Below are positions 41,608 through 56,768 of a stretch of 64,000 bases of DNA, in pieces. Location of the stretch: assembly GCA_016213775.1 (NCBI GenBank), contig JACQZR010000102.1, positions 1-64,000 of the forward strand. Reading direction: 5' to 3'. The position numbers and the translations under genes are program-made. Source of the stretch: Acidobacteriota bacterium. GTDB taxonomy: Bacteria; Acidobacteriota; Terriglobia; Bryobacterales; Bryobacteraceae. The notes below the pieces were generated by a model, which saw only the letters and a program-made list of their open reading frames with translations, was not told the DNA's origin and did no database searches. Positions within the stretch are counted from its first letter, which is position 1, and each line of letters starts with the position of its first letter.

Positions 41608-42822
41608 TCACTGCCGGATGCGCGGGAAAAGGAGGCGCCCGAAATTGAAGCCGAGGCCGACGCGGACGGTGGTGAGGTCGAAATCGAAACTGCGCGCCAC
41701 ACCAATCTGGATGGAGAGGGCCGGGTGAATAGCGATGGAAGTCCACGTGTTCACGCCGCGGTCCTGCAAGTCCGAGGCCTGCACGGTCGCATGGCTCACT
41801 TGCATGAACGGCGGAAGGCCCGGCTGAAGCACTCCACTTGAGCCTCCCGGCATGTGCCCCACGCCAGGCATAGCACCGGAATTGTGCCCCATGGCTGACG
41901 GCGTCACGGAGGCGGATGCCGACGACGCGCCCTGCATCACCTCGCGGCTCGTAATCTGCTGATCGCCAAACGGCGCGACAGCAAATCCGCCGATGCCGAG
42001 ACTGGTGCGTCTACCGAGACCAATCGTCAGCCCCCCGGAGAAGTGTGCGGCGCCGCCCGTGCTAATGTAGGGCCGTTGGTAGGCGACGTTGTTGAATACG
42101 TAGTTGGCAAGACCGGCTCTCACGAATGGGCGCAGCCGGCTCTCGAACGTGCGTGCCACCGTAACGGTTCCATCAACGGTGAGCTTTCCGGCACCGAGGC
42201 CGCGACCGGATTCCCCTGTCGGGAAGCCGACGGTCAGCGTCGGGCTGAAATCGAATCCACGAGCGCGCGCCAGTAACTGGCCTTGGGTATAGATATCGCC
42301 GACACCCGAGACTTTGCGGCTAGTGAGATCGTTGAAATAGAGCGGCAGCCCCACCACGACGGAGCCCCGGCTCCCTTCCACTCCAACCTCCGGAGTGGCT
42401 GTGTAGAAGGTCGCCGCGGAATTGCGATCCACAGTCGTGCTTAGGAATCCGATTGCACGCAGAGGCGGGCTGCCTCCTTCGGCTGGCGAGCGTGAGAGGG
42501 ACTTTAGCTCGCGATCAATCTGGTTGTTGAGTTCGCGGATTGCCGTCAAGATCGCGTCGCCGGTCTTGCTCCTTGCACGCAGTTCGCCGACGAAGAGTGT
42601 GCTGTAGGCTTGGCCGGTTTGCTTGCGGAGAAGGATCAGGTGGTTCCGGTGGACGTTTAACCTATCCGCCATGAGTGCCGCAACAATGAGGCGGCCATCC
42701 GGGGTGGTCGCGTAGGAATCGAGTCTTGCCGCCTCCGCCGCGAGGCGAGGCTCCACGGGCTGCGCGCCGACGATAAACGCCAGCGCCAGAATCAAGGTTG
42801 CGACCTGAAATGCCCTCCGCAT
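41608..42822 (-). CDS. Secreted outer-membrane-like protein with Met/His-rich insert
   Basis: A 404-residue exported protein (signal LILALAFIVGAQP). The start MRRAFQ overlaps the FecR stop by four bases. The body shows many short beta strands typical of a transmembrane barrel (GVEGSRGSVVVGLPLYF, RPFVRAGLANYVF, GFNFGRLLFP at the end). A Met/Gly/His-rich loop (SAMGHNSGAMPGVGHMPGGSSG) may bind metal. Role unknown; it is coupled to FecR and downstream of an NtrC-type regulator, and could be an outer-membrane metal-related barrel. Confidence 0.65.
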   Translation of the reverse strand: MRRAFQVATLILALAFIVGAQPVEPRLAAEAARLDSYATTPDGRLIVAALMADRLNVHRNHLILLRKQTGQAYSTLFVGELRARSKTGDAILTAIRELNNQIDRELKSLSRSPAEGGSPPLRAIGFLSTTVDRNSAATFYTATPEVGVEGSRGSVVVGLPLYFNDLTSRKVSGVGDIYTQGQLLARARGFDFSPTLTVGFPTGESGRGLGAGKLTVDGTVTVARTFESRLRPFVRAGLANYVFNNVAYQRPYISTGGAAHFSGGLTIGLGRRTSLGIGGFAVAPFGDQQITSREVMQGASSASASVTPSAMGHNSGAMPGVGHMPGGSSGVLQPGLPPFMQVSHATVQASDLQDRGVNTWTSIAIHPALSIQIGVARSFDFDLTTVRVGLGFNFGRLLFPRIRQ

Positions 42823-43565
42823 CAATGCACCGGCCCCGAACGCGGCATCGCGCCGCCCATGCTTTGAGAACCGGCAAGACCCATCATGTCCATGCCCGCC
42901 ATTCGCCCGCCCGGTGGTGCGCCCATCGGTTCGCCCGAACCGGCTTGGCGCCCAAGGCCCGGAATCAAGTCCGCACGTTCGGACCGCCCTCGAAACCGTT
43001 GCGCCACCACCGGCGGCTGGCCGCGCTGGACCCACGTACGTTGGCCTTTGCGTAAGATTACCTCTTGCGACGGCGACGCCACGTTCGCGACGGAGACCTC
43101 GCCTTCGTCGACCGCGACAAGGGTGGCCTCCGTCTCGTCCACAAACACACTGAACGTGGTTCCACGAACCGCGATTACCGCTGTTGGCGTCGTCATCTTT
43201 TGAGGATTGGGCCGGCCGCTCAACTTCTCGATGTGTACCTTAATAGACCCAAGAAACAGGTGCAGGAATTCCTGGATGTCGGCCGAGCGCTCGTTAAAGA
43301 TGACGTGCGAATCAGGGAAGACGCGAACCGTGCTGCCATCCCACGCCTGGATCATTGCCTCGGAGTTCTGCCCCGTGATCAATTCATCCCCGGACGCGAC
43401 CGCGTCTTGCAGCCGAAGGGGCCTGGCGGCTTCGCGAGATCTCCTGACGGTCAAAGTGCCCGTCAGGGAAACGACCTTGGCTGGCCGCGCGAAGTCCCAC
43501 TGCGCAGCCAAGGGCAGTGCGAACACCGCCGCCAGGACCAAGAGAAACATCTGCCGTCGGACCAT
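42822..43565 (-). CDS. Secreted FecR-domain protein
   Basis: A 247-residue exported protein (signal FLLVLAAVFALPLAAQ). The FecR domain is GTLTVRRSREAARPLRLQDAVASGDELITG followed by SEAMIQAWDGSTVRVFPDSHVIF and AVIAVRGTTFSVFVDETEATLVAVDEGEVSV. FecR-type domains sense or scaffold at the periplasm. The C-terminal 45 residues are Gly/Met-rich (GRMAGMDMMGLAGSQSMGGAMP), a possible copper ligand. A sigma-54-like promoter lies just upstream. Confidence 0.85.
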   Translation of the reverse strand: MVRRQMFLLVLAAVFALPLAAQWDFARPAKVVSLTGTLTVRRSREAARPLRLQDAVASGDELITGQNSEAMIQAWDGSTVRVFPDSHVIFNERSADIQEFLHLFLGSIKVHIEKLSGRPNPQKMTTPTAVIAVRGTTFSVFVDETEATLVAVDEGEVSVANVASPSQEVILRKGQRTWVQRGQPPVVAQRFRGRSERADLIPGLGRQAGSGEPMGAPPGGRMAGMDMMGLAGSQSMGGAMPRSGPVH

Positions 43566-43587: not shown

Positions 43588-43603
43588 TGCACGCGGGCTG
43601 CCG
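43588..43603 (-). promoter_or_regulatory. Sigma-54 (-24/-12) promoter-like element for fecR
   Basis: Minus-strand CGGCAGCCCGCGTGCA; GG and GC are in the exact 10-base spacing of -24/-12 promoters. About 24 bases from the FecR start codon. The -24 C departs from consensus T. See the sigma-54 finding. Confidence 0.55.
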
Positions 43604-43633
43604 TGGATTCCTGCTGTGTTTTCAACGCGCCCA

Positions 43634-45010
43634 TCATTGGTCCCGGAGCGTCCCGGGCACACCGGCGTGCCCGGATTGCGCCCGCTCCATCCTTGCCAAT
43701 TTCTTGTAGAGGGTCCGGCGCTGAATTCCCAAAATCTCGGCGGCGCGCGTCTTGTTGCCGTCCGCCTGTTCCAGAACACGCAGGATGTGCCTGCGTTCGA
43801 GATCACCGAGCGCCCCGGTGTCTTCTTCTTCTGTCTCGACGGATTGCTCGGGCAGGGACAACTCCTTTCTTACATCGCCCTCTGTGACGGGACCCGGGAG
43901 CGAGAACGCTACAATCCGGTGGAGCGTGTTGCGCAGTTGCCTGACGTTTCCAGGCCAATCGAATTGTTCCAACGCCCCAAGCGCATCCGGCTCCAGCCAG
44001 ATCTGTTTTCCGGCGGCGATGGCGGCTTGTTCCATAAACCGACGCACAAGGAATGGGATATCCGATCGCCGCTCCCGGAGAGGCGGAACGTCGATACGCA
44101 GAACGTTCAGACGATAGAAGAGGTCCTCGCGAAACTTCCCGTCCCTTACCATCGATTCCAGATTGCGGTTGGTAGCGGTGATGATCCGAACGTCCGCTTT
44201 CCTGGCGACTGGCGAGCCGACAGGCCGGTACTCCTTTTCCTGCATGAACCGCAGCAGCTTCGACTGGAACTCCAGAGGGATCTCACCGATCTCGTCGAAA
44301 AACACGGTCCCGCCGCGCGCCGCGTCAATTACGCCCTGGCGATCGCGGTCGGCGCCGGTAAACGCGCCACGCAGGGCGCCGAAGATCTCCGACTCCCACA
44401 GCGAGCCGGTCACGGCGCCGGAATCCACGGCGGCAAACGGCTTGGAGGACCTCGCACTCTGCTCGTGGATGGACCTTGCGACCAGTTCCTTGCCACAACC
44501 CGTCTCGCCCACCACCAGCACCGTGTCATCCGTCCGGGCGCAGCGGGCCATCTTCTTGTAGACGTCAACCATGCACGGGGCGAAACCGATCAGCCCACCG
44601 AAGCATTGGAGGTCCTCTCCAGGTTCGGTTGGCCGAGGAGCGGTGGCTCGTTGCGCTCGTTCCACGACTTCCAGCAGCGCCTTCATCTCAAAAGGCTTGG
44701 CCAGGTAATCGAAGGCACCTCCCATCTCGGCCTCCATGGTGGTGCGCGCCGACCCGCGAGCCGTCATCAGGATTACAGCCGCACTTGGGTTGGCGTTTTT
44801 GGCTTCGGTCAAGACGCGCAGGCCAGTCACGCGGTCGATGTAGATGTCGCTGAGGATGATGGGGAACCGCCCCGTGCGGACCTGATCCAACGCCTCCTCG
44901 CCGTCGAGCACGACTTCCACTTGGTAGCCCTTGGCGCGGAGGAACACGGAGACGGTAGAAGCAATGGCCTCGTCGTCGTCGATGACCAGAACGGGTACCG
45001 GTTTCATCAC
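43634..45010 (-). CDS. NtrC-family sigma-54-dependent response regulator
   Basis: A 458-residue regulator. Receiver domain 1-120 with Asp55 (LSDIYID), AAA+ domain with Walker A GETGCGKE at 168-175, the sigma-54 contact loop GAFTGA at 215-220 and FFDEIGEI, then a Fis-type helix-turn-helix (NKTRAAEILGIQRRTLYKKLARM). It is encoded after its CHASE2 kinase with a four-base overlap (ATGA). It should activate sigma-54 promoters, of which seven candidates lie within 12 kb. Confidence 0.95.
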   Translation of the reverse strand: MMKPVPVLVIDDDEAIASTVSVFLRAKGYQVEVVLDGEEALDQVRTGRFPIILSDIYIDRVTGLRVLTEAKNANPSAAVILMTARGSARTTMEAEMGGAFDYLAKPFEMKALLEVVERAQRATAPRPTEPGEDLQCFGGLIGFAPCMVDVYKKMARCARTDDTVLVVGETGCGKELVARSIHEQSARSSKPFAAVDSGAVTGSLWESEIFGALRGAFTGADRDRQGVIDAARGGTVFFDEIGEIPLEFQSKLLRFMQEKEYRPVGSPVARKADVRIITATNRNLESMVRDGKFREDLFYRLNVLRIDVPPLRERRSDIPFLVRRFMEQAAIAAGKQIWLEPDALGALEQFDWPGNVRQLRNTLHRIVAFSLPGPVTEGDVRKELSLPEQSVETEEEDTGALGDLERRHILRVLEQADGNKTRAAEILGIQRRTLYKKLARMERAQSGHAGVPGTLRDQ

Positions 45011-46878
45011 GCCGCTCCTTCTTCCGGAGGCATTCCTTCCGGTAGGACAATGGTGAATCGCGAACCCTGTCCGAGATTGCTTTCAACCGTCACCTTGCCT
45101 CCATGCTGCACGGCGATCTCCTTGACGAGGGCGAGGCCGACTCCGGCCCCGTCCTCCGTGCCCGTCTGGTCCCTACTGACACGATAGAACTTATCGAAGA
45201 TCCGTTGCTGATCCTGGGGCGGAATGCCGTAGCCTTCATCGCTCACCGTGATCTGAACACCGCCGCCGCTCGGCTCCGCGCGGAGCGTGATGCGCGTCTG
45301 CTTCGGGCTGTACTTCACCGCATTCGTCAAGAGGTTGTAGATGGCGAAAGACAGCAACTCAGGGTCGGCCAGCACGGTCAGTTGCGGAACGTCGGCAACG
45401 ATCTCTGTTTTCTTTCGCGACGCGAAGAGCCTGCCACGCTCCACAACCTCGTCGCACAGATCGTGAAGAGGAACGGGGCGTTTCTCCAGTTTCAGGGAAC
45501 CGCTGGCCATGCGCTCCACATCGAGAAAGGTATGGAGAATCTGGGTGAGCCGCTTGGATTCCCTGAACAAGAGACCGGCCATCCGGGCGCGCTCATTCTC
45601 CGGCATGGTGCTGTCGGCGATGAGTTCGCTCTGGCCTTGAATGGCCGTCAGCGGCGTCTTGATCTCATGAGCAATGGCTTGCACGCGGAACGCATACTCC
45701 GACCGTTTCTCCTCCGAAGAGCGCAGGGCCAGCCGGACGAGACCATATTCCGAGGCGCCTGAGACAGCCGATGCGACCATCAGCACCGCCAACATGGATC
45801 CTACGGGCCAGACATATCCCGATCGAAGACCGAGCCAACCCGCAGTCAGAATCGCCACGGCGAGAGAGAACCAGAGGAGCGGGAGGCGCCAGCCTCGCAG
45901 GCGCCAGGTTCCGAACGCGCAAAGGGACAAGATCGAGGCCGCCAGCGCGAGCTCAGCCGGAGGCGAAGGAGACACGAGGAAGGCGCGGTCGAGAATCGTG
46001 CGTGCAATATTGGCGTGGATCTCGATACCGCTCATTCCTATTCCTGACGACACAGGGGTGAACAGGCGGTCTCCACCACCCTGAGCCGTGACTCCCACGA
46101 TCACAATCCGATTTCGAAGCTCGGCCAGATTCGCAGTACCATCGAGGACCGCAGAGAATGCCACGCGGCGAAAGGCCCCTTCCGGCCCGGCATAATTGAT
46201 GCGCAGCCGGCGGTCTTCCCGGGATCTTGCCGCGATGCGGATGTCGTCGAGGACGATGGAATCGGCACGCTCCACCAGGACGCTCCCGGACAGGAACAGA
46301 CGGCAGGCTTCGAGGGCGAGCGCCCAAAGCCGCCTGTCCTCGGTCAGTTTGGCTAGCAGTACGCTCCGGACACTACCATCGGGGTCTGGAGCGGCGTGGA
46401 CATGCCCCGCGACAGCGTGGCTTCCGAGACCAGCGAGAGGCAGGATCCATGAAGGATTCGCCATTGAGTCGCTGGCGAGGGCGGCACTCAACACAACACG
46501 CGGGAACCGCTCGAGTGCCGCGGCAAGCTTCTTGTCATCCCCCGGCGGACCGGGTTCGGAGATCAAGAGGTCAATCACCAAGACACGCGGCGCCGCTTCC
46601 GCAATTCTGTCAAGGCCCGCCGCAAGCAACGACCGCTTCAACGGGAGCGGACCATAGCGGGCGGCGGTTCCATCGTCGATGGCGACCAGGACGATGGAAT
46701 CCACACCGCTGGTCCGCACTGGTGACCGAAGCCTAAACAGGATATCGCTGAAGGACGCGTTGAACTGCCCGACGAAGCTGTTCCAGAGTAGAACGGGCAC
46801 CGTGGCCAGCAGGAGCGACAGGTAGACGATGCGAAAAACCCAGAGCCGTCGCCGGTCCTGTTTCCACGGGTGATTCAT
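45007..46878 (-). CDS. CHASE2-domain sensor histidine kinase
   Basis: A 623-residue membrane kinase. One N-terminal membrane helix (WVFRIVYLSLLLATVPVLLW) precedes a CHASE2 sensor (about 40-320: DSIVLVAIDDGTAARYGPLPLKRSLLA, then the three C-terminal membrane helices near 330-400). The kinase core has AIAHEIKTPLTAIQ (phospho-His), NLLTNAVKYSP and GAGVGLALVKEI. Start MNHPWKQ is used because the longer frame runs into the intergenic region. A sigma-54-like element sits 26 bases upstream. The stimulus is unknown; extracytoplasmic metal or envelope stress is inferred. Confidence 0.92.
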   Translation of the reverse strand: MNHPWKQDRRRLWVFRIVYLSLLLATVPVLLWNSFVGQFNASFSDILFRLRSPVRTSGVDSIVLVAIDDGTAARYGPLPLKRSLLAAGLDRIAEAAPRVLVIDLLISEPGPPGDDKKLAAALERFPRVVLSAALASDSMANPSWILPLAGLGSHAVAGHVHAAPDPDGSVRSVLLAKLTEDRRLWALALEACRLFLSGSVLVERADSIVLDDIRIAARSREDRRLRINYAGPEGAFRRVAFSAVLDGTANLAELRNRIVIVGVTAQGGGDRLFTPVSSGIGMSGIEIHANIARTILDRAFLVSPSPPAELALAASILSLCAFGTWRLRGWRLPLLWFSLAVAILTAGWLGLRSGYVWPVGSMLAVLMVASAVSGASEYGLVRLALRSSEEKRSEYAFRVQAIAHEIKTPLTAIQGQSELIADSTMPENERARMAGLLFRESKRLTQILHTFLDVERMASGSLKLEKRPVPLHDLCDEVVERGRLFASRKKTEIVADVPQLTVLADPELLSFAIYNLLTNAVKYSPKQTRITLRAEPSGGGVQITVSDEGYGIPPQDQQRIFDKFYRVSRDQTGTEDGAGVGLALVKEIAVQHGGKVTVESNLGQGSRFTIVLPEGMPPEEGAA

Positions 46879-46903
46879 CTTACTTGATCTTCGCTCAGTA
46901 ACG

Positions 46904-46919
46904 AGCACGCGGTGTGCCA
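46904..46919 (-). promoter_or_regulatory. Sigma-54 promoter-like element of the kinase/regulator operon
   Basis: Minus-strand TGGCACACCGCGTGCT: a perfect TGGCAC at -24 and GTGCT at -12 with correct spacing, 26 bases upstream of the kinase start. This suggests auto-activation of the two-component operon. Confidence 0.7.
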
Positions 46920-46982
46920 TTCGACTGCCGGGAGAGCCGGGGGAGTGTGCCCAAAACGCACTGCTCGCCTGTCCCAGAGGCT

Positions 46983-47000
46983 GCAAGTTATTGAAAACTT
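46983..47000. promoter_or_regulatory. Candidate activator-binding palindrome
   Basis: CAAGTT-ATTGAA-AACTTG, six perfect pairs around six bases, placed between the divergent sigma-54-like promoters of the kinase operon and the multicopper oxidase. It is a natural place for an NtrC-type enhancer site serving both. Confidence 0.5.
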
Positions 47001-47013
47001 GTGAAGTGATCGA

Positions 47014-47029
47014 TGGAAACTCGTGTGCT
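47014..47029 (+). promoter_or_regulatory. Candidate sigma-54 promoter of the multicopper oxidase
   Basis: TGGAAACTCGTGTGCT has TGG and GTGCT in -24/-12 spacing. The predicted transcript start would leave only about six bases to the chosen ATG, so this is weaker than the others or the real start is downstream. Confidence 0.4.
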
Positions 47030-47044
47030 GACCAGCTACACAGG

Positions 47045-48436
47045 ATGATTCCTATAAAACGTCGGCAATTCATGCGATATGCGGTCGGGGCACTGGTGAT
47101 GCCGGTGTCGAGGATTGTGCGGGCCGATCCCGCGGCAAACGAGCCAGGACTGGTTGAACTCGGCATTGAGGCAGGCGAGAGTCGGGTGGACGGCGATTCC
47201 TGGGCGGGTTGGCTCTACACATACAACAGCCAGTTGCCGGGGCCGGTGTTGGAAGCGCGATCAGGGGACACGGTTCGCATTCGGCTCCTGAACCGCCTTG
47301 GCGAGGCAACCAACCTCCACTTCCACGGATTGCACGTGCCGCCGACCGGGGCGGCGGACAACGGCTTCCTCATGGTGCCGCCCGGAGAGGTCAGCAACTA
47401 TGAGTTCAGGATTCCGGCTAACCACCCCGCTGGCACTTTCTGGTATCACCCGCACGTGCATGAAAGCACGGCGCGGCAGGTGTCGCGAGGCCTCGCCGGA
47501 GCAATCCTGATCCGCGGCGATCTCGATGCCGTACCGGCGGTGGCGGGCGCGCCAGAGTATATCCTCGTTTTGCAGGATCTCGATCTGGACTCGCGCGGGT
47601 ATCCTCGCGAGCCGAACATGATGGAACGTGTGACCGGCCGGGAGGGGAATCTGGTCACGCTGTCGGGTACGTTCAATCCCACCATCGCCATAGCCGCCGG
47701 CGGGTGGGTTCGACTGCGGCTGATTAACGCCTCGGCCTCGCGGTTCTACCGGCTCAAGGTTGAAGAACACGCGATGGCCCAGATCGCCAGCGACGGCGGC
47801 CCGCTCCCGTCCCCGCAGTACCTGGACGAACTCCTGCTGGCTCCGGGTGAGCGTGCGGAGGTGATGGTCGAAGGCACGAGAACGCCGGGTGCCTACCGGG
47901 TCCTCAATCTCCCATACAATCGCGGCGGCATGGGGATGATGGGCGCGTTCCGGGGCACCGAGGTCCTGGCTTCTCTTGTCTATGATGGCAACGCGGACCG
48001 GAGAATCGCGCTCCCGGAACGGCTGTTTCCGTTCGATGCTCTGCCGCAACCCAGCCGGCGGAGATCGTTTGTGCTCGGCCAAGGAATGGGGATGGGCATG
48101 GGCATGATGGGCGGGACGAATTTCTCAATCAACGGCCGGACCTACAATCCGAACCGCGTCGACACGCAAGCTCGTCTCGGCGATGTCGAGGAGTGGGAGT
48201 TTGTGAATCCATCCATGATGGACCACCCGATGCACATCCACACCAACTCATTCCAGGTGATCGACGCCAGCGGCGGCGTACAGACGGCTTGGAAAGACGT
48301 GGCACTGGTCCGAGCGGGCAGCAGAGTTCGAGTGCGAATGAAGTTTTCGGATTATGCTGGCCGCACTTTCTACCACTGTCACATACTTGACCACGAGGAC
48401 CTCGGCATGATGGGCATTCTGGAGATACAGGGGTAG
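47045..48436 (+). CDS. Secreted multicopper oxidase (CueO/CotA-like)
   Basis: A 463-residue oxidase. Start MIPIKRRQFMRYAVGALVMP resembles a TAT-type signal with KRRQF. Four copper-ligand motifs are present: HFHG (92-95), WYHPHVH (134-139), HPMHIHTN near residue 400 and HCHILDHEDLGMM at the C-terminus. The Met-rich MGMGMMGG and GMGMMGAFRG segments recall CueO's Met-rich copper-binding insert. It probably oxidises Cu(I) or other substrates in the periplasm. It is flanked by copper-type genes. Confidence 0.92.
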   Translation: MIPIKRRQFMRYAVGALVMPVSRIVRADPAANEPGLVELGIEAGESRVDGDSWAGWLYTYNSQLPGPVLEARSGDTVRIRLLNRLGEATNLHFHGLHVPPTGAADNGFLMVPPGEVSNYEFRIPANHPAGTFWYHPHVHESTARQVSRGLAGAILIRGDLDAVPAVAGAPEYILVLQDLDLDSRGYPREPNMMERVTGREGNLVTLSGTFNPTIAIAAGGWVRLRLINASASRFYRLKVEEHAMAQIASDGGPLPSPQYLDELLLAPGERAEVMVEGTRTPGAYRVLNLPYNRGGMGMMGAFRGTEVLASLVYDGNADRRIALPERLFPFDALPQPSRRRSFVLGQGMGMGMGMMGGTNFSINGRTYNPNRVDTQARLGDVEEWEFVNPSMMDHPMHIHTNSFQVIDASGGVQTAWKDVALVRAGSRVRVRMKFSDYAGRTFYHCHILDHEDLGMMGILEIQG

Positions 48437-48441
48437 GGTAG

Positions 48442-48978
48442 CTACTCTCCGCTTCTGAACTCCAGCGCGGCGGGTAAAAGGTCACCGTGTCGAATCCTGA
48501 GAATTCCTTCAGTGGTCTGCGCTGCCACCGGAACTGGCGTGCAGTCCTTCTCCTTCGGGAGACGTTGTCCCGGACCAGGCATTGGCATGCCCTCCCGGCA
48601 ATGACCGCAGACGAGGCGGCCAGCCAAGTAACGGCTCGGCTTGCCGTGGGACCAACATCGCCGACATACAGAGAACACCGTTTGGATGTGGCCCTGCGGC
48701 TGTCGTACCACAAGCAGCCGATGCGGCTCCGGCAGCCTCTCGAAGTCAAGATAAAGGGCCGGCTGCTTGTCCAAGCGCGCAATCGGCACATCCGCATCCT
48801 CGCCGGCGGGGACCGAGACGACCTCCGCGCGGTCGGTCATCTGTTCCTGGTGAGACCACACCATCCCAACGACGGCTACGAGCATCAGGACGAGAAACGG
48901 TAGCAGGCTCAGCTTCTCGCGGCGCGTCAGTTCGAGCTTTCTGGCTCGTCGTTTCACGCCCGCACCTCGGGGAGCCAT
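48442..48978 (-). CDS. DUF2318-type membrane-anchored Cys protein
   Basis: A 178-residue protein with a basic N-terminus, one membrane helix (KLSLLPFLVLMLVAVVGMVW, about 23-42) and a periplasmic domain with VCRRCWSHGK and VCGHCREGMP. These CXXC pairs match DUF2318, a domain thought to bind iron or another metal. It belongs to a minus-strand group with 48954 and 49267. Its end is five bases from the multicopper oxidase stop (convergent). Confidence 0.65.
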   Translation of the reverse strand: MAPRGAGVKRRARKLELTRREKLSLLPFLVLMLVAVVGMVWSHQEQMTDRAEVVSVPAGEDADVPIARLDKQPALYLDFERLPEPHRLLVVRQPQGHIQTVFSVCRRCWSHGKPSRYLAGRLVCGHCREGMPMPGPGQRLPKEKDCTPVPVAAQTTEGILRIRHGDLLPAALEFRSGE

Positions 48979-49208
48979 AAGATCTCGGCCGGCACGTCAT
49001 CGCTTACATATCCCTCGAGCAACCAAAGCGGATCATGCACACCAAACACAGGCGAATGGCCAAGGCCAATGGGAAGCCGGTTCCGGAAGATAGCCTCGCA
49101 CTCCATCTCGAACGCCAGTATAAGACCGAGTGGCTTAAGTGCCGCTCGATGCTTGCGCAGCATTTGAGGCAGAGGCTTCGGGCTGTGTAGCGCGTGCTCC
49201 AATGCCAT
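48954..49208 (-). CDS. Truncated DUF302-like protein
   Basis: An 84-residue protein (MALEHALHSPKPLPQMLRKHRAALKPLGLILAFEMECEAIF in part). The pattern VFGVHDPLWLLEGYVSDDVPAEILWLPEV resembles the later half of DUF302, a family also present at 54498. A GTG start at 49241 would add 11 residues. It overlaps the DUF2318 gene by 25 bases. Homology is suggestive only. Confidence 0.55.
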   Translation of the reverse strand: MALEHALHSPKPLPQMLRKHRAALKPLGLILAFEMECEAIFRNRLPIGLGHSPVFGVHDPLWLLEGYVSDDVPAEILWLPEVRA

Positions 49209-49266
49209 GATCACGAATGACCCTCGATTCCCGTACTGCACGCAGGCTGCCAGTAATGGTCACGGC

Positions 49267-49605
49267 CTAGTGCTTGTGGCCGGAAGGCTGTTGGCCGGCG
49301 GGCTGTGAGTTCCGCCGGGTGTCGGAGCGCGCGATTCGTTCAGCCATGAAGTCCCCGTCAGCCGTCACGCGGCAAGTCACGCTGACAATATCGCCAGCGT
49401 TAAGACCTGCCGGATTGAAGCGTTCGCTGAAGAGGATCGTGCGGACCCCTCGCGCCAGTTCCAGTTCCATCGACTCGGCGCCGATTGCCGAGATTCGGCC
49501 CGTCAGCAAGATCTGTTGGGTGCGCCGCGAGCCGCATCCGGCCCAGGCCGACTCGGCGGCAGCCGCGGATGCCACGGCAGCGATGAGTATTCTTCGAGTG
49601 ATCAT
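49267..49605 (-). CDS. Small secreted DUF5666-like protein with His tail
   Basis: A 112-residue exported protein with an AGGGAGG ribosome binding site and a signal ending SAWA. The core (TQQILLTGRISAIGAESMELELARGVRTILFSERF) is the small beta-domain seen in DUF5666-like proteins, and the C-terminus ends GHKH. It is a paralogue of 51181 and probably binds periplasmic copper or similar ions. It leads a minus-strand group with the DUF302-like and DUF2318 genes. Confidence 0.7.
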   Translation of the reverse strand: MITRRILIAAVASAAAAESAWAGCGSRRTQQILLTGRISAIGAESMELELARGVRTILFSERFNPAGLNAGDIVSVTCRVTADGDFMAERIARSDTRRNSQPAGQQPSGHKH

Positions 49606-49823
49606 GTTGGTTACCTCCCTGTTTGTCAGGCGATCTTTGTTGGTGAGTTGACGGACCGCCAAGAGACACAATGCGGTCCAACTCGGTTGCGATCTCCTGG
49701 CCGCTAAACTGTTCACGAGAACCCGGTCGCCGATAAGGACTGTCGGCGTTTTCGGACATCGCCCGTGAGCCTGTCTGAAAGTCGGCCTCGACTGCCCGGT
49801 GAACAGCACGTCACATGCCAGGA

Positions 49824-50543
49824 TCAGGTGCAAGCTTGATCCTGTGGAATGAGTTCGTATCTGGACTTTGGGGGCACCGAGTGCAGGCCGAATTGACGAT
49901 CGAATTCCTCGTCAAATAGGACTGGAATGTCATCCAGAGCTTTGATCGCAACTGCCAGACTGTTCAGGGCTTGCTCAGGGACGTCCGGATGCTGCCTTCC
50001 TTCGACTCGAAGAACTTGTTCAGTGGTGCACAGCAGGTCTCTGACCGCCATCACCTTCTTGACGACAGACTGCCCGAGAAGCGCCATCGCTGACAGTTTT
50101 GAGGCAGCGGCGAACTGCTGGACGGTCAGCGTGAGCTGTTCGCCGAGCCCGTTGAATGCCTGTGTCAGTTGTCCGATTTCGTCCTTTCGGGGAACAGGGA
50201 TGGCAGCCTTCCAAGTGCCGCGCCCCATGTAGTTGATGTGGCGAAGCAAGTCGTCGAGTGGCGACAGGACGATCCGGTCGCAAAGAGTACCCAGCACGAT
50301 GACCAATGCCAGGACAGTCACCCCGGCATGAATGACATGGAGCCATCCCAGTCGTGTAAACAGGCCTTCGCGCCCCCGCTCTAGGTTCGCTACGAGGTCC
50401 GCTCGGTCCATCTCGACCTCCATGAGCGCTGCATGGTCTCTGAGGAAAGCGGCTGTCTGACGGTGGCTGAGCCATTCGGAGAACCCGAGGATTGATAGAA
50501 CTGCGAACGCAGTGGTGAGGAACAGTCTGGTCTTGAGCTTCAT
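49824..50543 (-). CDS. Kinase-like membrane protein lacking catalytic domain (HAMP)
   Basis: A 239-residue protein with two membrane helices (about 6-24 and 68-90), a periplasmic loop between them, a HAMP domain (LSPLDDLLRHINYMGRGTWKAAIPVPRKDEIGQLTQAFNGLGEQL in part) and a helical part that aligns with a histidine-kinase DHp (SKLSAMALLGQSVVKKVMAVRDLL) but has no phospho-acceptor His. The ATPase domain is absent; the protein ends within what would be the DHp. It may be a signalling adaptor or a degraded kinase. Confidence 0.75.
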   Translation of the reverse strand: MKLKTRLFLTTAFAVLSILGFSEWLSHRQTAAFLRDHAALMEVEMDRADLVANLERGREGLFTRLGWLHVIHAGVTVLALVIVLGTLCDRIVLSPLDDLLRHINYMGRGTWKAAIPVPRKDEIGQLTQAFNGLGEQLTLTVQQFAAASKLSAMALLGQSVVKKVMAVRDLLCTTEQVLRVEGRQHPDVPEQALNSLAVAIKALDDIPVLFDEEFDRQFGLHSVPPKSRYELIPQDQACT

Positions 50544-51180
50544 TGTGCACTCCAGGTTCCAGGAACAACTTTTCGTGCGGCACTACAATTGCGCCGGTAC
50601 AGATCAACAGGATACAGGGCCGCTCATTGCACAGGCATAAGATAAGAAACATACCCCGGGGATGAAAACGGGCGGCCGGCTCGGAGGAACACCGGCCCGC
50701 CCGCAGCCCAGCGCGCCGCATGGTTCGGAGGATACCGATGCTCGCGTGGGGAAAGAGCCGCGAGGGAGGCCAAGCGGGTGATCAGTGGAATCAGCCCGCA
50801 GTGGCGCGAGCTGTGAGGGAAGAATACCTGATCTCATTTCCTGGCTCTCGATTCAACCGGCTCATGCGAATTCTAACTGCAACTCAGCATCCAGGCTCCG
50901 AAACTCCTGAATTGCCGCGCCAGAGGTGTGACGCTGTGCCGGAATGGACAACAACTGTGCAATTTGAGGCAGGGCCAGAGTTCCATTCGTTCCCGATCCC
51001 TGGACACGCGGAATCACCAACCTCGCGATCGTTCACGATGGCTCGCGCGATCGCCAGACGACCTGCTCGCCACGGGAGAGTTGCTCCGCTCGCATTGGAA
51101 AACCGGGCGCGTTTCTGTTCGCGCGCCAACCTGGTTTTTGGCTGATCGCGATTTGACACGGATTCCGTCCTTCAGATGAA
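50544..51180. other. 637-base region with no secure gene
   Basis: A plus-strand frame of 141 codons at 50720-51145 has no recognisable family, no clear ribosome binding site and no close neighbour, so I do not call it. A GC hairpin (50670-50702, arms GGGCGGCCGG and CCGGCCCGCCC with one bulge) is the only feature. Confidence 0.5.
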
Positions 51181-51546
51181 TCAGTGCGCGTGGCCGCTAT
51201 GTCCCGAAGGCATTGGCGTTTGCGGATTTGTTGGGGGAGCCGGCAGGCGGATCTCCCGTGCCACGATTTCCCCAGAGTCCTCGAACTTGCCGACAACGGT
51301 CACCTTCATGCCGCGCTTCAAAGCAGAAGCCGAGACTTCTGTTTCACCCATCGCGATGCGCGGCTTCTGAGTGAGAAGGACGGTCACCGTGCCCTTCTTG
51401 GTCTTGAGTTGCAGGCGATCGTCGCCGACCCCGACAATCTCGCCATTTGTCTTCTGGTCCTTCGGCTTGTTGGAGCCGGCGGCTGCCACCCCGGCGGGGA
51501 GCAACAGAGCGGCCATCGCCATCACTGTTAGAGATCTGCGCGTCAT
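51181..51546 (-). CDS. Small secreted DUF5666-like protein with GHSGHAH tail
   Basis: A 121-residue exported protein (signal LTVMAMAALLLPAGVAAAG; AGGAAGG ribosome binding site). The fold GEIVGVGDDRLQLKTKKGTVTVLLTQ with a KRGMKVTVVGKFEDSGEIVAREIRL domain marks the DUF5666-type beta-barrel. The C-terminus GHSGHAH is a likely metal ligand. A sigma-54-like promoter (TGGTCCGCAACTTGCT) is about 79 bases upstream. It is a paralogue of 49267 and of the decayed copy near 52.6 kb. Confidence 0.75.
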   Translation of the reverse strand: MTRRSLTVMAMAALLLPAGVAAAGSNKPKDQKTNGEIVGVGDDRLQLKTKKGTVTVLLTQKPRIAMGETEVSASALKRGMKVTVVGKFEDSGEIVAREIRLPAPPTNPQTPMPSGHSGHAH

Positions 51547-51624
51547 GGAAACCTTCCTGTAACGGAAATTGGAGCGCCTTAGAGCCGATCCTCGTTCAGG
51601 CGACCGGCTCACGCTGACATAGAG

Positions 51625-51640
51625 AGCAAGTTGCGGACCA
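51625..51640 (-). promoter_or_regulatory. Sigma-54 promoter-like element for the DUF5666-like gene
   Basis: Minus-strand TGGTCCGCAACTTGCT, TGG at -24 and TTGCT at -12 with exact spacing, about 80 bases upstream of the start. Confidence 0.55.
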
Positions 51641-51888
51641 CACGATGAAGTCCCGGACCAGGCGATGTTACGAGCATCCGGGCGGCAGTGAGGCGGGAAC
51701 GGTCTTCGGCAGGTTGTCCGGAAGGAGCCAGGCACTGTGCGCTTTGGGGCAATTCAGTTGGGGGCGATCTGGAGTTCCCACTACGCGCCAGACGCTCACC
51801 ATCCGCGTGGATCTGACAGCACCGCGGTTGGGCTCCAGTGGACAGCGATGCGGGTAGATTCAGAAGTAAAGACACGAGGCCTCCGCGC

Positions 51889-51904
51889 TGGTCATGATCT
51901 TGCA
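51889..51904 (+). promoter_or_regulatory. Sigma-54 promoter-like element of gene 51933
   Basis: TGGTCATGATCTTGCA; -24 TGG and -12 TTGCA are in the exact spacing. The -12 is about 30 bases before the start codon, leaving an 18-base leader with AGGAGG. Confidence 0.6.
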
Positions 51905-51932
51905 CTAAAGAAAACGAAGGTAGGAGGCTACC

Positions 51933-52364
51933 ATGCCAGTCCAACCTCTTGAACTTCGGGCCATCATCGACAAGCACAGCGTGAAGTACGAGACGTGGCC
52001 CCACTATGAAATCCATGAGGGTAAGCGTGTGATGGTTGGCTTCGATCTCGAGTTGCACGGTACCCACGGCCACGGCCAGACTTGGCTCCGGCCTGGCTGC
52101 GATCTCTGCAAGCAGACGTATGATGACTTGACGAAGATCGCGGTTGAGATTCTGCCCCACGAAGAACGCCCCTCGAAATACGAAATCCAACCGTTTGACA
52201 ACAGCATCCATTTTGACCGGCGGGGACCTGGTGAGGTTGTGCTGGCGATCCGCATCTATCACCGGCATGAGTATTTCTCACCGGTGGACAGATGTGAAGA
52301 GCGCTGCCTCGGGGAGATGGAGAACAAGCTAGGCGAATTCGGCATACCCGGGCGGCGGCACTAG
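51933..52364 (+). CDS. Hypothetical protein with CDLC motif
   Basis: A 143-residue protein, no signal peptide, with a strong AGGAGG. Its centre has GCDLCKQT and scattered His/Cys (RHEYFSPVDRCEERC) that could coordinate a metal. The N-terminal RAIIDKHSVKYETWPHYEI and the beta-like middle are compatible with a small sensor or chaperone, but no family is recognised. It is preceded by a sigma-54-like promoter, linking it to the island's regulon. Confidence 0.7.
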   Translation: MPVQPLELRAIIDKHSVKYETWPHYEIHEGKRVMVGFDLELHGTHGHGQTWLRPGCDLCKQTYDDLTKIAVEILPHEERPSKYEIQPFDNSIHFDRRGPGEVVLAIRIYHRHEYFSPVDRCEERCLGEMENKLGEFGIPGRRH

Positions 52365-52439
52365 ACCTTGCCGCACCTTGATTTCCGTCTCCGGGGTCTT
52401 GGCAGGGGAATCCACGGATGCCGTCCTTGCGGCTCACGG

Positions 52440-52771
52440 GCCCGTGTCCCCAAGGTCGCTGATGTTTTTGCAGGCCCCAGCAGGCTACTCTCAGGTGCTG
52501 CGACTTCCCAAGAGCCATCGGCTTACCCTACAGCCTTATGCTGCGCCTCAAAGCAAAAGCCGAGAGTTCTGTTTCGCCGATCACGACGACGGGAAGTTCC
52601 TGAGTGAGCTGTGTCATTCTCATTCACGAACTTGAAGGCGATCACTTGCGATCCCAATAATTTCGCCGACGTTTCAAGCAGTCTGGGTGGCAGCGAGGCG
52701 GGCACGGCCATCGGCGGGTTGTCCGAAAGGAGGCAGGCAATGTGCACTTTGGGGCGATTCGGTCGGGCTAA
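52440..52771 (-). pseudogene. Decayed copy of the DUF5666-like gene with upstream segment
   Basis: Part of the DUF5666-like gene (51310-51430) is recognisable at about 52535-52680, on the minus strand, with clear shared runs such as CAAAGCA then AAGCCGAGA and TTCTGTTTC. The sequence upstream of that gene (51664-51765) also recurs at 52670-52771. No open frame is preserved, so this is a relic of tandem duplication. Confidence 0.6.
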
Positions 52772-53328
52772 TTCCATCGAAAGAACACACCAGTTGCCGT
52801 TCGGCCGTACCATTCGATGTCCATCGCCTTCACGGCTCGAAGATCCAGGAATACCCCCACGTTGCGACGAAGCTTGCACTCGATCCCGCCGCCCGGGGAG
52901 ACAGCGAACTTTGCAGTGGAGCCGCCAGCGCTTGCAGCGGTCCCCATCATGCCAGTCCATCCGCCCCTAACGCCGGTCTGTCCTGAGACCGATGTCGTGA
53001 CCGCGCCAGCGGCCAGTGCCCCGTAGGGCGTTACACGCGAACGATTCGCCGCCGAGATCCGTACACCGCCCATTACCTCATGCCGCCGCGCGCTGTACAT
53101 CCCCAGATTATTGTTCGCGTAACTCCCGGTGATGGCAAGTAACCTGGAAAGGCCAAACGCGACCTCCGTTCCGGCGGTCGGCGCAACTGTGTCCATAAGG
53201 CCAGTGTTGGAGCCGAAGCTGAGACCCGCGAACCCTCTCAGTTCTCCTCGGCCACGATTCAGATCCCCATCCTGCGAAAAAGCGGGCGCGATGGACAGGG
53301 CGCCGCATAAAACCAATCTGATAAACAT
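52768..53328 (-). CDS. Secreted outer-membrane beta-barrel-like protein
   Basis: A 186-residue exported protein (signal IRLVLCGALSIAPAFSQ; ATG preferred over an upstream TTG because the latter would sit against the ribosome binding site). The beta-rich, Gly-rich body with GVFLDLRAVKAMDIEWYGRTATGVFFRWN at the end and an aromatic C-terminus is typical of small outer-membrane barrels. Function unknown; gene order suggests a metal-stress role. It may be transcribed with 53444. Confidence 0.65.
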   Translation of the reverse strand: MFIRLVLCGALSIAPAFSQDGDLNRGRGELRGFAGLSFGSNTGLMDTVAPTAGTEVAFGLSRLLAITGSYANNNLGMYSARRHEVMGGVRISAANRSRVTPYGALAAGAVTTSVSGQTGVRGGWTGMMGTAASAGGSTAKFAVSPGGGIECKLRRNVGVFLDLRAVKAMDIEWYGRTATGVFFRWN

Positions 53329-53397
53329 GGTTAACAACCCCTTTCACCCTTAGACTGTCGAAAGACGGTCGAACCGCGTGCGGCACGCAAGACAGAA

Positions 53398-53417
53398 GCG
53401 GGGCTTGCGGGCCCCGC
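53398..53417 (-). terminator. Hairpin downstream of the Met-rich gene
   Basis: GCGGGGC-TTGCGG-GCCCCGC, seven pairs. On the minus strand it is followed by TTCTGTCTT, a weak T-tract. A second imperfect stem (GACTGTC/GACGGTC) lies just downstream. Confidence 0.55.
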
Positions 53418-53443
53418 ATCGAGGTAAAGTCGTTCTGAGCGGC

Positions 53444-54226
53444 TTAGCGGGGTGGAATCCCCACCATCGTCTGGCCGATCTTGACCTTGAACTTCAGACT
53501 GCCGTCGGGCAGGAAAGCATAGAGAGTTTTTTCGCCTGCCGGGATCGAGTCCCGGTCGTCGACATTGCTTCCCCTGCTCGGCATATCCATCCCAGTCACG
53601 TAGATGACGTAGTCGGCGGGGCTCAGTCCGGTGCTGACGACCTGCGGCGCGCCGAGAATGTCCGAGTCGACTACCAACGTTCTCGTGATTACTGCCGATG
53701 TTGCGGTCGCTGAGATGACCAGAAACCGGGACTTGGTGGACTGAGCTGAAGTGCCCGGATTCATCATCCCGCCGCCCTGCTGGCCTTGTGCCATCATCTG
53801 TCCATCATCGAGCCCAAGAAAGAGCTTGCCATCCTTTCCCACTACTAGTTCCGACATGTGGCTGCCGGTCAACTCCAGCTTCCAGCGGACAGTCCCGTCA
53901 GCAGGGCTGATCGCTGCCAGTTCCTGCTTGAACGCATACTGCTGCGACGGGTTGCCGGGCGTTAAGGGGGCCTGTGCCTGCACTGGACGGACAACATAGA
54001 CGGTCCCGTCCGGGCCGACCGTGAGGTCGTTCATCATCCCGCTGCCCATGCTGGCGTCCATCATGCCGTTGGCGCCCATCATCCCTGCACCCATGCCAGT
54101 GCCTGGCTGGCCGGAACCTTGCATCCCGCCGCTGCCCATGCCGGAACCCATCTGGGCAAAAGCGGTCGCGGTGAGCAGGGTCAGAGTCAGGACTGAAACT
54201 AGTGCCATGCGGATCTTGTCGATCAT
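53444..54226 (-). CDS. Secreted Met/Gly-rich protein with PQQ-like beta-propeller repeats
   Basis: A 260-residue exported protein (start MIDKIRMALV with TAAGGAG; signal to about AFA). After the signal comes a 50-residue Met/Gly/Gln-rich segment (MGSGMGSGGMQGSGQ style), a likely copper or metal ligand. The rest has two or more blade-like repeats such as DLTVGPDGTVYVVRPVQA and GSHMSELVVGKDGKLFLGLDDG. A strong sigma-54-like promoter is 50 bases upstream. It may act as a periplasmic metal chaperone. Confidence 0.75.
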   Translation of the reverse strand: MIDKIRMALVSVLTLTLLTATAFAQMGSGMGSGGMQGSGQPGTGMGAGMMGANGMMDASMGSGMMNDLTVGPDGTVYVVRPVQAQAPLTPGNPSQQYAFKQELAAISPADGTVRWKLELTGSHMSELVVGKDGKLFLGLDDGQMMAQGQQGGGMMNPGTSAQSTKSRFLVISATATSAVITRTLVVDSDILGAPQVVSTGLSPADYVIYVTGMDMPSRGSNVDDRDSIPAGEKTLYAFLPDGSLKFKVKIGQTMVGIPPR

Positions 54227-54274
54227 TGCGAATCTCCTTATGAATTGTATTAGCGGCTTCACGCACTCTTTGTA

Positions 54275-54290
54275 TGCATCGCGCGTGCCA
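54275..54290 (-). promoter_or_regulatory. Sigma-54 promoter-like element of the Met-rich gene
   Basis: Minus-strand TGGCACGCGCGATGCA: perfect TGGCACG at -24 and ATGCA at -12. About 50 bases upstream of the start with room for a leader. The best of the set together with the kinase promoter. Confidence 0.7.
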
Positions 54291-54393
54291 AAGGCAAGTT
54301 GGTGATTCTGCGTGAGGGGGCCACTTGCAGGAGATCATGACCGCTCAATGCGGGCACGCGTAGTGTGCCCTCCGTGCACCCAGGGCCTGGAGC

Positions 54394-54485
54394 CTACTCG
54401 CTTCCGGGCAGGCCGAACTGCTCCATGCGATAGTTGAGGACTTGCGGCTAATATCGAGGTATTCGGAGGCGAGGTCAAACGCCAG
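54394..54485 (-). pseudogene. Relic of an NtrC-type regulator (Fis C-terminus, frameshifted)
   Basis: The minus strand first reads RERLAFDLASEYLDISRK and, after a one-base shift, continues VLNYRMEQFGLPGSE-stop. Both parts together are the Fis-like C-terminus of an NtrC-family regulator. The rest of the gene is absent. Confidence 0.6.
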
Positions 54486-54497
54486 TCTTTCCCGCCT

Positions 54498-54977
54498 TCA
54501 TTTTTTGGTCACTTCCTGCGGGCATACGTCAAACACCGGGCTCTTCGGAACCGGGGTGCCCTCTTGCGCACGCTTGGCAGAATGAGCGCCTACCGATGTG
54601 AGAGCCTCCCCGACGCGCCGCAGTGTACGGTGGACAGGGATCGATATGGCTGCGGAGACGCCCGCTGTTCGAAGGGCCTGAGGCGCGAGGATGCGCGCCT
54701 GGGTTTCCGGGCCGTGTTCGGACAGAACGACGTGAAGCGGGAAGAAAACGCCGGCGGCGCCATCGGCAACGAATGCCTCCAGCAGCTCATACGGACAATC
54801 CACTCCCAAGACCGAACATTTCGGCAATCGCACTCCGGCTGTGCGAAGGATCCCGCCGGCGAGGTCGAAGTCGAATGCGATTTGGAGGCCCTGCTTCTCC
54901 AGCATCGCCCGTATCCGCCCGCGAGCCTGCTCATAGGGCTGGTTCAGAACCAAGGTGTAGCTGCATTCGGGGTTCAT
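54498..54977 (-). CDS. DUF302 protein
   Basis: A 159-residue protein. I use the start MNPECSYTLVLNQPYEQ because a sigma-54-like promoter lies just upstream (54999-55014) and a longer start would overlap it. The DUF302 pattern is complete: QARGRIRAMLEKQGLQIAFDFDL, then KCSVLGVDCPYELLEAFVADGAAGVFFPLHVVLSEHG. DUF302 domains bind or respond to small ligands; several occur in metal-tolerance clusters. The C-terminal tail is basic. Confidence 0.75.
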   Translation of the reverse strand: MNPECSYTLVLNQPYEQARGRIRAMLEKQGLQIAFDFDLAGGILRTAGVRLPKCSVLGVDCPYELLEAFVADGAAGVFFPLHVVLSEHGPETQARILAPQALRTAGVSAAISIPVHRTLRRVGEALTSVGAHSAKRAQEGTPVPKSPVFDVCPQEVTKK

Positions 54978-55327
54978 GGGCGTCCTGGAATTCATCATTG
55001 CAATCCAGTCACCAGCCCCAAGTGAGATTGTTTCGAGGTGATTCTGGAGATTCTGAGACACCTGGTGTCCGGAATTGGCCAACGAAGGAGCGGCGATTAA
55101 CGCTGCCTACCCAAGCATTGGCCTCTTCCGAACGGCGCCGTTGTGCTCGCATGGGAACAGGGCGGCGCAGTCGTTGCCAAAAGGCCGGACTGAACCACCT
55201 CCGAGGACGAGATTCTTACGCTACCAACACCACGCAACACACGGAAGAGGAGGAATTGTTCCCGCCCGCGAAATGCGCAGCAAACGGTGGGGCCATCTTC
55301 CTTCCAGGTGGCTGCGATTCCCACTTG
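54978..55327. other. Intergenic region with a sigma-54-like promoter, otherwise empty
   Basis: Contains the element below. Minus-strand frames of about 75 codons here (for example 55097-55324) lack start signals. Confidence 0.5.
54999..55014 (-). promoter_or_regulatory. Sigma-54 promoter-like element of the DUF302 gene
   Basis: Minus-strand TGGTGACTGGATTGCA: TGG at -24 and TTGCA at -12, exact spacing. The predicted leader to the 54977 start is about 12 bases. Confidence 0.6.
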
Positions 55328-55597
55328 CTACCCGGCGTTGCCAAGGCCGGCACTGCGCAATGCGATCTCATTCGGGCCGGCGCCGGTACAGCAGGTCGCC
55401 AGCTTCCCGTTGATCGCCACGGCTGGCACGGTCTTAACGCCATACTGCCTGGCTTTTGCGGCGACCTCGGGCTTGTTCATGTCAAGCACCTCGATCTCAC
55501 ATGAGGAGCAGGCAATCTGCTGGACGAGTCTTACTGTTTCGTCGCACGCCGGACACCCAGCGCTAAACACTTCAACTTTGCGTTTGATGGTATTCAT
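55328..55597 (-). CDS. Thioredoxin-like protein with CPAC motif
   Basis: An 89-residue small thioredoxin fold (MNTIKRKVEVFSAGCPACDETVRLVQQI). The redox pair is GCPAC near residue 15, then a second Cys pair in IACSSCEIEVLD and GVKTVPAVAINGKLATCCTGAG (the cis-Pro loop and two more Cys). Such redox-active disulfide proteins pass metal or electrons. It overlaps the MerC fusion stop and is likely part of that operon. Confidence 0.85.
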   Translation of the reverse strand: MNTIKRKVEVFSAGCPACDETVRLVQQIACSSCEIEVLDMNKPEVAAKARQYGVKTVPAVAINGKLATCCTGAGPNEIALRSAGLGNAG

Positions 55598-56358: not shown

Positions 56359-56768
56359 CGCGCTTCCTTTGCTTCGATGCTTTCGAGAATCGGACACTCA
56401 TTCGCCGGCCCACAGCCGGGGCACAGTTCGCTAAGCCCAGCCAGCACCCGCTTCATCGATTCCAGAGTACGAATCTTTTCCTCAATATCAGCTACCTTTG
56501 CCTTTGCTAGCCGCTGTACATCTGAGCAGTCCTTCTGCGGGTCAACCTGAATCGAGAGTAGATCCCGAATTTCCGCGAGAGAAAAGCCGAGCTCCTGTGC
56601 GCGTTTGATGAACCGTACCCGGCGCACTGTCTGCTCGGGGAACATTCGGTAGCCGGAGGCGAGCCGCGGGGGCTTCGGAAGAAGCAGTTCTCGTTCGTAG
56701 TAGCGAATCGTCTGGAGGTTTACTCCGCCGCGTGCCGCAACCTCGCCAATCTTGAGGGCCTTCACCAA
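56355..56768 (-). CDS. MerR-family metal-responsive regulator
   Basis: A 137-residue MerR protein. N-terminal winged helix KIGEVAARGGVNLQTIRYYERELLLPKP, dimer helix, and metal-binding Cys: KDCSDV (around residue 82), LCPGCG (about 117-120) and ECPIL (about 126), the arrangement of Hg(II)-type MerR. It should repress or activate a 19-bp-spacer promoter that reads its own operon. The first two downstream genes are coupled by overlaps. Confidence 0.9.
   Translation of the reverse strand: MVKALKIGEVAARGGVNLQTIRYYERELLLPKPPRLASGYRMFPEQTVRRVRFIKRAQELGFSLAEIRDLLSIQVDPQKDCSDVQRLAKAKVADIEEKIRTLESMKRVLAGLSELCPGCGPANECPILESIEAKEAR

Follow-up and report, generated by a model that had tools for sequence, protein, structure and literature searches.

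The DNA analysed here is a 64,000-nucleotide stretch, referred to as the window, from an Acidobacteriota bacterium of the family Bryobacteraceae (contig JACQZR010000102.1, positions 1 to 64,000, assembly GCA_016213775.1). The assembly from which it was taken comprises 10.96 Mb in 314 contigs. A metal island spans ∼35-63 kb of the window. Within it a CHASE2 histidine kinase, an NtrC-type response regulator, a FecR-domain protein (gene fecR) and one further protein are encoded in a row, with a multicopper oxidase gene divergent from the kinase operon. The island also contains two CusA/CzcA-type RND pumps and a MerR-type regulator gene accompanied by thioredoxin-like and MerC-like genes, and between the pumps and the MerR gene lie, besides the genes just named, those for FtrD-like, two DUF5666-like, HAMP, 143-amino-acid (143-aa), Met-rich and DUF302-like proteins. 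The same island is present in a relative, Bryobacter sp. L041; L041 and G192 share their gene set and were counted as one genome. The subject of this analysis is a set of sigma-54 promoter elements in the island and their putative control by the kinase-regulator pair.

Pfam assigned a receiver, a Sigma54_activat and a Fis-type helix-turn-helix (HTH) domain to the regulator, and the GAFTGA motif of its AAA+ domain is visible in the translation, as an earlier note on this DNA had stated. The genome also has a gene for sigma-54, recognised by a single Sigma54_DBD match (E 1.3e-55). The same note had listed seven 16-base elements upstream of island genes, and all seven are present at the positions and on the strands given (Table 1). 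Six have the strict pattern TGG-N9-TGC[AT], the number claimed, and the fecR element reads CGG-N9-TGCA. The spacer had been miscounted as N10; it is N9, and the N10 pattern gives 11 matches in the window against 15.1 expected. With N9 the entire window contains 28 strict matches against 13.9 ± 3.5 in shuffled sequences, a number that none of 100 shuffles reached. When 197 spacings (N3 to N199, N9 included) were counted in the 46.8-55.1 kb region, the mean was 2.5 matches (standard deviation 2.0) and N9 came top with 15, the runner-up having 9. The list in the note was partial, with six of these 15 included. Not all strict matches are plausible promoters. That at 48219 was rejected, as it encodes MDHPMH of the multicopper oxidase and is coding in orthologs too, that at 54108 is unlikely, lying within the Met-rich gene, and that at 50546 is unlikely because an ATG is too near. 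A candidate 84-aa open reading frame (ORF) ahead of the FtrD-like gene (48954-49252) has TGGCAGCCTGCGTGCA upstream; a single locus could be scored.

The strict pattern was scored gene by gene before the projected start in up to 21 loci. The elements keep their position in orthologous loci although much of the flanking DNA has diverged. A strict element precedes fecR in 14 of 17 loci (the CGG version of the window not being counted), the Met-rich gene in 6 of 8, the 143-aa gene in 3 of 3 and the DUF302-like gene in 9 of 11 homologs, in all nine at 36-39 bp ahead of the projected start. For the oxidase the count depends on stringency: 4/9 loci with the strict pattern, 7/9 with TGG-N9-TGC and 9/9 with YGG-N9-TGC. 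The DUF5666-like gene at 51181 scored 2/5 and the kinase direction 4/17. In the window the Met-rich element has one mismatch to the consensus TGGCACGNNNNTTGCW and the remaining listed elements have at least two. No strict element was found at the regulator gene or the gene after fecR (0/17 each), at the RND, TolC and adaptor genes (0/4 each), or at the MerR (0/3), thioredoxin-like (0/2), FtrD-like (0/5), 189-aa (0/4) and second DUF5666-like (0/3) genes. That the RND and MerR genes lack the element had been noted before, and their homologs bear this out. The element of the HAMP gene occurs in 3/3 homologs at scattered positions (-18, -156 and -35) and so this gene was not counted as having a conserved promoter. 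Loci L040 and L130 cannot be taken as independent, being near-identical in the region of the DUF302-like and Met-rich genes.

Both the fecR and the Met-rich element have a palindrome, GGGCAC-N6/7-GTGCCC, upstream. The genome contains three exact copies, two of them at these promoters, and palindrome and element occur jointly in two places in the genome, the fecR and Met-rich promoters only. The third exact copy (G000:C33:1399-1417) has no sigma-54 element at the distance tested. A de novo search for inverted repeats in each gene group, allowing up to one mismatch, returned the palindrome in 7/7 Met-rich, 8/9 oxidase and 14/17 fecR regions, whereas the maxima in ten shuffled controls per group were 2, 2 and 4, respectively. 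The oxidase region missing from this count is that of the window. The same search did not return the palindrome at the DUF302-like, 143-aa, HAMP and DUF5666-like genes. Nor was a second palindrome shared by these genes seen, the search giving weak dyads only (pooled best 4/24); nothing was drawn from the dyads CGGGGC (4/10 DUF302-like regions, from three related genomes) and AGCCGG (4/9 DUF5666-like regions), each against 2-3 in shuffles. At the oxidase the TGG lies 60-62 bp from the palindrome. For most Met-rich genes this distance is 61-62 bp, with 51 bp in two divergent cases, and for fecR it is 50-85 bp.

The distribution of palindrome and element across genomes was compared with that of the kinase-regulator system in a family sample of 237 genomes. 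In seventeen the regulator has an ortholog with an identity of 58% or more, the next best being 52%, and with G043 (partial regulator at a contig edge) and G274 (kinase ortholog near a contig end) there are 19 carriers. The exact composite of palindrome and element was present in 16/19 carriers and in 11/218 non-carriers (Fisher p 4e-15). With the seven carriers of the palindrome discovery set removed, 10 of the remaining 12 had it (p 2e-10). A reversed control composite occurred in 7/237 genomes. There are 40 composites in all, 29 in carriers and 11 elsewhere. In 26 cases the carrier composite adjoins fecR or the oxidase gene, a Met-rich homolog, or a member of a second protein family, which is propeller-like; none of the 11 outside carriers adjoins a homolog of the queried window proteins. 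A YGG-N9-TGC element lies 45-100 bp from 31 of 33 exact palindromes, on either side, in 24 carrier loci, whereas 17 other spacers gave 1-10. These sites are not independent and so no claim is made from helical phasing of the distances.

The Met-rich gene gave an opportunity for prediction. Its homologs occupy 16 loci in 15/237 family genomes. In nine of these loci the palindrome, exact in eight and with a single mismatch in one, is followed by an element 61-62 bp on. The sites in G239, G273, G223, G275 and G274, genomes unused in discovery, were predicted and tested afterwards; all five have the exact palindrome and an element fitting TGGCACGNNNNTTGCW without mismatch. The protein itself is 8% Met. 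Its profile matches are PQQ propellers, with designed repeat proteins scoring highest and Pfam PQQ_2 under the cut-off, and a plasmid search for it gave no match. A long propeller-like protein with weak Pfam matches is found under the same palindrome and element in some relatives and is clearly Met-rich in two of three sequences inspected.

The recognition helix of the regulator, GIQRRTLYKKLAR, is present in 17/17 family orthologs, whereas all 21 retrieved paralogs covering the helix have IERKTLYRKL. Among 399 genomes sampled across the class, regulator orthologs (54-55% identity) were found in two members of another family, with the helices GIQRRTIYKKLQR and GIQRRTLYKKLER, near-identical to GIQRRTLYKKLAR. 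In both loci the end of the regulator gene, with an exact palindrome, is followed 70-71 bp on by an element (one TGG, one CGG) and then by fecR.

Table 1. Features of the metal island discussed in the text, in window coordinates.
Feature	Position	Strand	Remarks
FecR-domain protein	42822..43565	-	Pfam; N-terminus signal-peptide-like by eye; target in most loci
Sigma-54 element of fecR, CGGCAGCCCGCGTGCA	43588..43603	-	CGG version
NtrC-family response regulator	43634..45010	-	Pfam: receiver, Sigma54_activat, HTH_8; recognition helix GIQRRTLYKKLAR
Palindrome GGGCAC-N6-GTGCCC, proposed enhancer	43655..43672	.	Last codons of regulator gene, 51 bp upstream of fecR element
CHASE2 sensor histidine kinase	45007..46878	-	Pfam; ATG 46878 used as start
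Sigma-54-like element of kinase, TGGCACACCGCGTGCT	46904..46919	-	Promoter role doubtful
Degenerate palindrome GAGCCGGGGGAGTGTGCCC, 3 mismatches	46934..46952	.	Kinase/oxidase divergent region; exact copies in several orthologs
Sigma-54 element of multicopper oxidase, TGGAAACTCGTGTGCT	47014..47029	+	61 bp from degenerate palindrome
Multicopper oxidase	47045..48436	+	Pfam; CueO/laccase-like; twin-arginine-like N-terminus by eye; Met-rich stretch
DUF5666-like protein	51181..51546	-	Under Pfam cut-off; ATG 51546 used as start
Sigma-54-like element of DUF5666-like gene, TGGTCCGCAACTTGCT	51625..51640	-	Weak support
Sigma-54 element of 143-aa gene, TGGTCATGATCTTGCA	51889..51904	+	Without palindrome
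143-aa protein	51933..52364	+	No Pfam match at E 0.01
Met-rich protein	53444..54226	-	PQQ-like propeller repeats; N-terminus signal-peptide-like by eye
Sigma-54 element of Met-rich gene, TGGCACGCGCGATGCA	54275..54290	-	Strongest support among the seven
Palindrome GGGCAC-N7-GTGCCC, proposed enhancer	54352..54370	.	61 bp upstream of Met-rich element
DUF302-like protein	54498..54977	-	Under Pfam cut-off; ATG 54977 used as start
Sigma-54 element of DUF302-like gene, TGGTGACTGGATTGCA	54999..55014	-	Without palindrome

The above results suggest, with a probability that we put at roughly 0.83, that the kinase-regulator pair drives promoters made of the palindrome and a -24/-12 element at the fecR, oxidase and Met-rich genes. 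On this reading the CHASE2 sensor kinase would phosphorylate the adjacent NtrC-type regulator. The latter, an enhancer-binding protein of the AAA+ type, would bind GGGCAC-N6/7-GTGCCC and open sigma-54 RNA polymerase by looping at -24/-12 elements ∼50-85 bp downstream. The elements would then mark transcription starts, predicted near 54264 for the Met-rich gene, 43577 for fecR and 47040 for the oxidase; for the DUF302-like and 143-aa genes the predicted positions are near 54988 and 51915. The core targets would be fecR with the following gene, the oxidase and the Met-rich propeller-like protein, with other exported proteins added in some relatives, and the signal would be copper (or silver) at the cell surface. 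The targets look exported, their N-termini being signal-like by eye. Such a sigma-54 two-component regulon is well supported by the sequence comparisons for fecR and the Met-rich gene, and for the multicopper oxidase via its orthologs. The adjacent two-component system had been named as controller of the whole set; this is supported for the three genes with both palindrome and element, and only in part for the DUF302-like and 143-aa genes, which keep the element and have no palindrome, while support for the DUF5666-like gene is weak.

Several observations weigh against this reading. In the window the oxidase palindrome carries three mismatches, though it lies 61 bp from its element, and the predicted start at TGGAAACTCGTGTGCT leaves a leader of ∼5 nt only. 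The fecR palindrome is absent in G067, G290 and G291, and in G044 and G229 it has no element within 45-90 bp. Three carriers (G084, G240 and G296) have near versions and no exact match to the composite, and if the regulator alone defines a carrier, which drops the two with partial evidence, the composite is present in 14/17 against 13/220. The genomes are related, so the p-values overstate independence. Three of the 29 carrier composites adjoin no homolog of the queried proteins; one of these, in G289, lies ahead of an ORF whose beginning resembles a signal peptide. Among the 16 Met-rich loci, there are two in which the palindrome is exact and the element, at 51 bp, is weaker, and five, with 37-42% identity, that have neither palindrome nor element. 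The two loci outside the family have the fecR site only, no oxidase or Met-rich homolog being found in the 18-20 kb inspected. We infer copper or silver as the signal solely from the multicopper oxidase and the CusA/CzcA-type pumps nearby. Finally, the 46.8-55.1 kb region used for the spacing count was picked post hoc, and matches to TGGCACGNNNNTTGCW with up to one mismatch are not enriched genome-wide (98 against 109 for the reversed control). Given the first of these points, weight has been put on conservation across genomes rather than on the window count; given the second, a single element is no proof and the case rests on conservation in orthologous loci.

These last two points are also what can be said for regarding the elements as chance matches picked by eye in a GC-rich genome. 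Against this are the specificity of the N9 spacing in the island, the conserved positions in orthologs and the matches in genomes unused for discovery, and such an origin is very improbable. The fecR palindrome might instead be conserved as code for a C-terminal peptide of the regulator and not as DNA. It lies in frame within the last codons of the regulator gene, encoding ∼GHxxVP, in 7/19 loci (one with a mismatch). However, in other carriers (e.g. G192, G230 and G289) it is found between the regulator and fecR genes, outside the regulator reading frame, and the oxidase and Met-rich copies are upstream of the gene, so constraint at the DNA level is the better reading and we give coding conservation hardly any credence. 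Somewhat less remote, though still quite improbable, is a palindrome that serves a different regulator, such as a metal-responsive repressor carried along with the island, while the sigma-54 promoters are driven otherwise. In favour of this, the palindrome beside the kinase start looks operator-like. However, the palindrome tracks a regulator whose recognition helix is invariant in family orthologs and different in the paralogs retrieved, it lies beside that regulator in another family too, and its constant 60-62 bp to the sigma-54 elements at two targets suits an enhancer better than an operator.

The earlier note had gone further and proposed that all seven elements form one self-amplifying regulon, the regulator's own kinase operon included. 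In favour of this, the kinase-direction element is found in the window and three relatives, a fourth relative has a variant of it, and the DUF302-like and 143-aa elements are conserved. However, the palindrome was not found at the DUF302-like, 143-aa, HAMP and DUF5666-like genes, and the kinase element, strict in just 4 of 17 loci, is abutted by the palindrome, an odd position for an activating enhancer. The gap between the two is 1 bp in the relatives where the element is seen and 14 bp in the window. Nine loci have a palindrome separated by 20-29 bp from the projected start of the kinase gene. In G239, G240 and G273 this distance is ∼20 bp, and the sole kinase-direction element in range is 87 bp on, within the projected gene. 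Self-amplification is therefore doubtful and not supported here, and a single regulon of all seven elements is unlikely. Judged from its position, the palindrome beside the kinase start could equally repress the kinase operon. This raises the prospect, possible if on balance doubtful, of a palindrome with a dual role, activating the oxidase via sigma-54 from ∼60 bp while the same phosphorylated regulator represses its own sensor operon.

As to the remaining genes, sigma-54 probably serves the DUF302-like and 143-aa genes as well. Their elements are conserved without the palindrome, so another activator may serve both genes. In L042 (64-1416) and L137 a second NtrC-type regulator, 38-44% identical to that of the window, is encoded beside DUF5666-like or HAMP homologs. 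This second regulator may drive the sigma-54 genes that lack the palindrome.

Some further observations concern the make-up of the island. It adjoins a phage-like segment (4255-33147) encoding a portal protein, a large terminase, a VapE-like protein, a RecD-like helicase, two DNA methylases and a serine recombinase. Compared with their counterparts in G043 (L044:18058-19492), the MerR, thioredoxin-like and MerC-like genes (55328-56768) show 96, 87 and 76% identity, while the kinase has 53%, indicating a mosaic island. L040, a groundwater metagenome-assembled genome labelled Planctomycetota, has the Met-rich, 189-aa and one DUF5666-like gene at ∼76-84% identity, by gene transfer or through a misbinned contig. 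The DUF5666-like gene and its upstream region have a decayed duplicate (51663-51762 against 52667-52767, 82% over 101 aligned positions; 51240-51375 against 52477-52608, 73% over 139 positions).

Among the titles of open-access papers returned by searches, none describes this system in this bacterial group. The type of control is known and this version of it looks new; the novelty suggested for it is tempered by close precedents. In enteric bacteria the NtrC enhancer is a dyad read by the Fis-type HTH upstream of sigma-54 promoters; that dyad is similar in size to the palindrome and differs in half-site sequence and function. The closest known system is CorSR/curA of Myxococcus xanthus, which is copper-induced, with four putative sigma-54 promoters along the cluster and envelope proteins as targets (PMC3707914). 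There too a kinase and a sigma-54-type regulator, with the same three Pfam domains, are encoded alongside a multicopper oxidase; that cluster also includes a PQQ-repeat lipoprotein, to which the Met-rich protein with its PQQ-like repeats may be comparable. The table of that paper lists HAMP for CorS but not CHASE2, which the island kinase has, and curA is a single operon with a CopA P-type ATPase and DUF305 (PMC3707914), whereas here several targets each have their own palindrome and element. Neither CopA P-type ATPase nor DUF305 matched among the window proteins scanned, which cover part of the window ORFs. The FecR-domain gene is a target in most loci here, a difference from CorSR/curA as set out there. 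The terms 'palindrom', 'inverted repeat' and 'upstream activating' do not occur in the main text on CorSR/curA (PMC3707914). Also close is ZraPSR of Escherichia coli and Salmonella, a metal-linked two-component system with a sigma-54 activator in which divergent sigma-54 promoters serve the genes for a periplasmic metal-binding protein and for the sensor and regulator (PMC4987338). According to that account it differs in responding to zinc and envelope stress, in having the ZraP chaperone instead of oxidase and propeller-like proteins, and in that zraSR is itself sigma-54-driven, which is doubtful for the kinase here (PMC4987338). No ZraP-type chaperone was matched by Pfam among the island proteins scanned, no search aimed at ZraP having been made.

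The regulon prediction specifies an activator, its site of 18-19 bp, a tight spacing between site and element, and named targets across ∼20 genomes. It would extend metal-responsive sigma-54 control, known in Myxococcus and enteric bacteria, to a little-studied bacterial group, and it groups the Met-rich propeller-like and FecR-domain proteins as likely metal-protection proteins. If the palindrome does have a dual role, the system would be a homeostatic switch rather than a self-amplifying one, in which the sigma-54 activator of a copper-protection regulon is its own repressor, and the regulator and fecR site of that regulon occur in two bacterial families.

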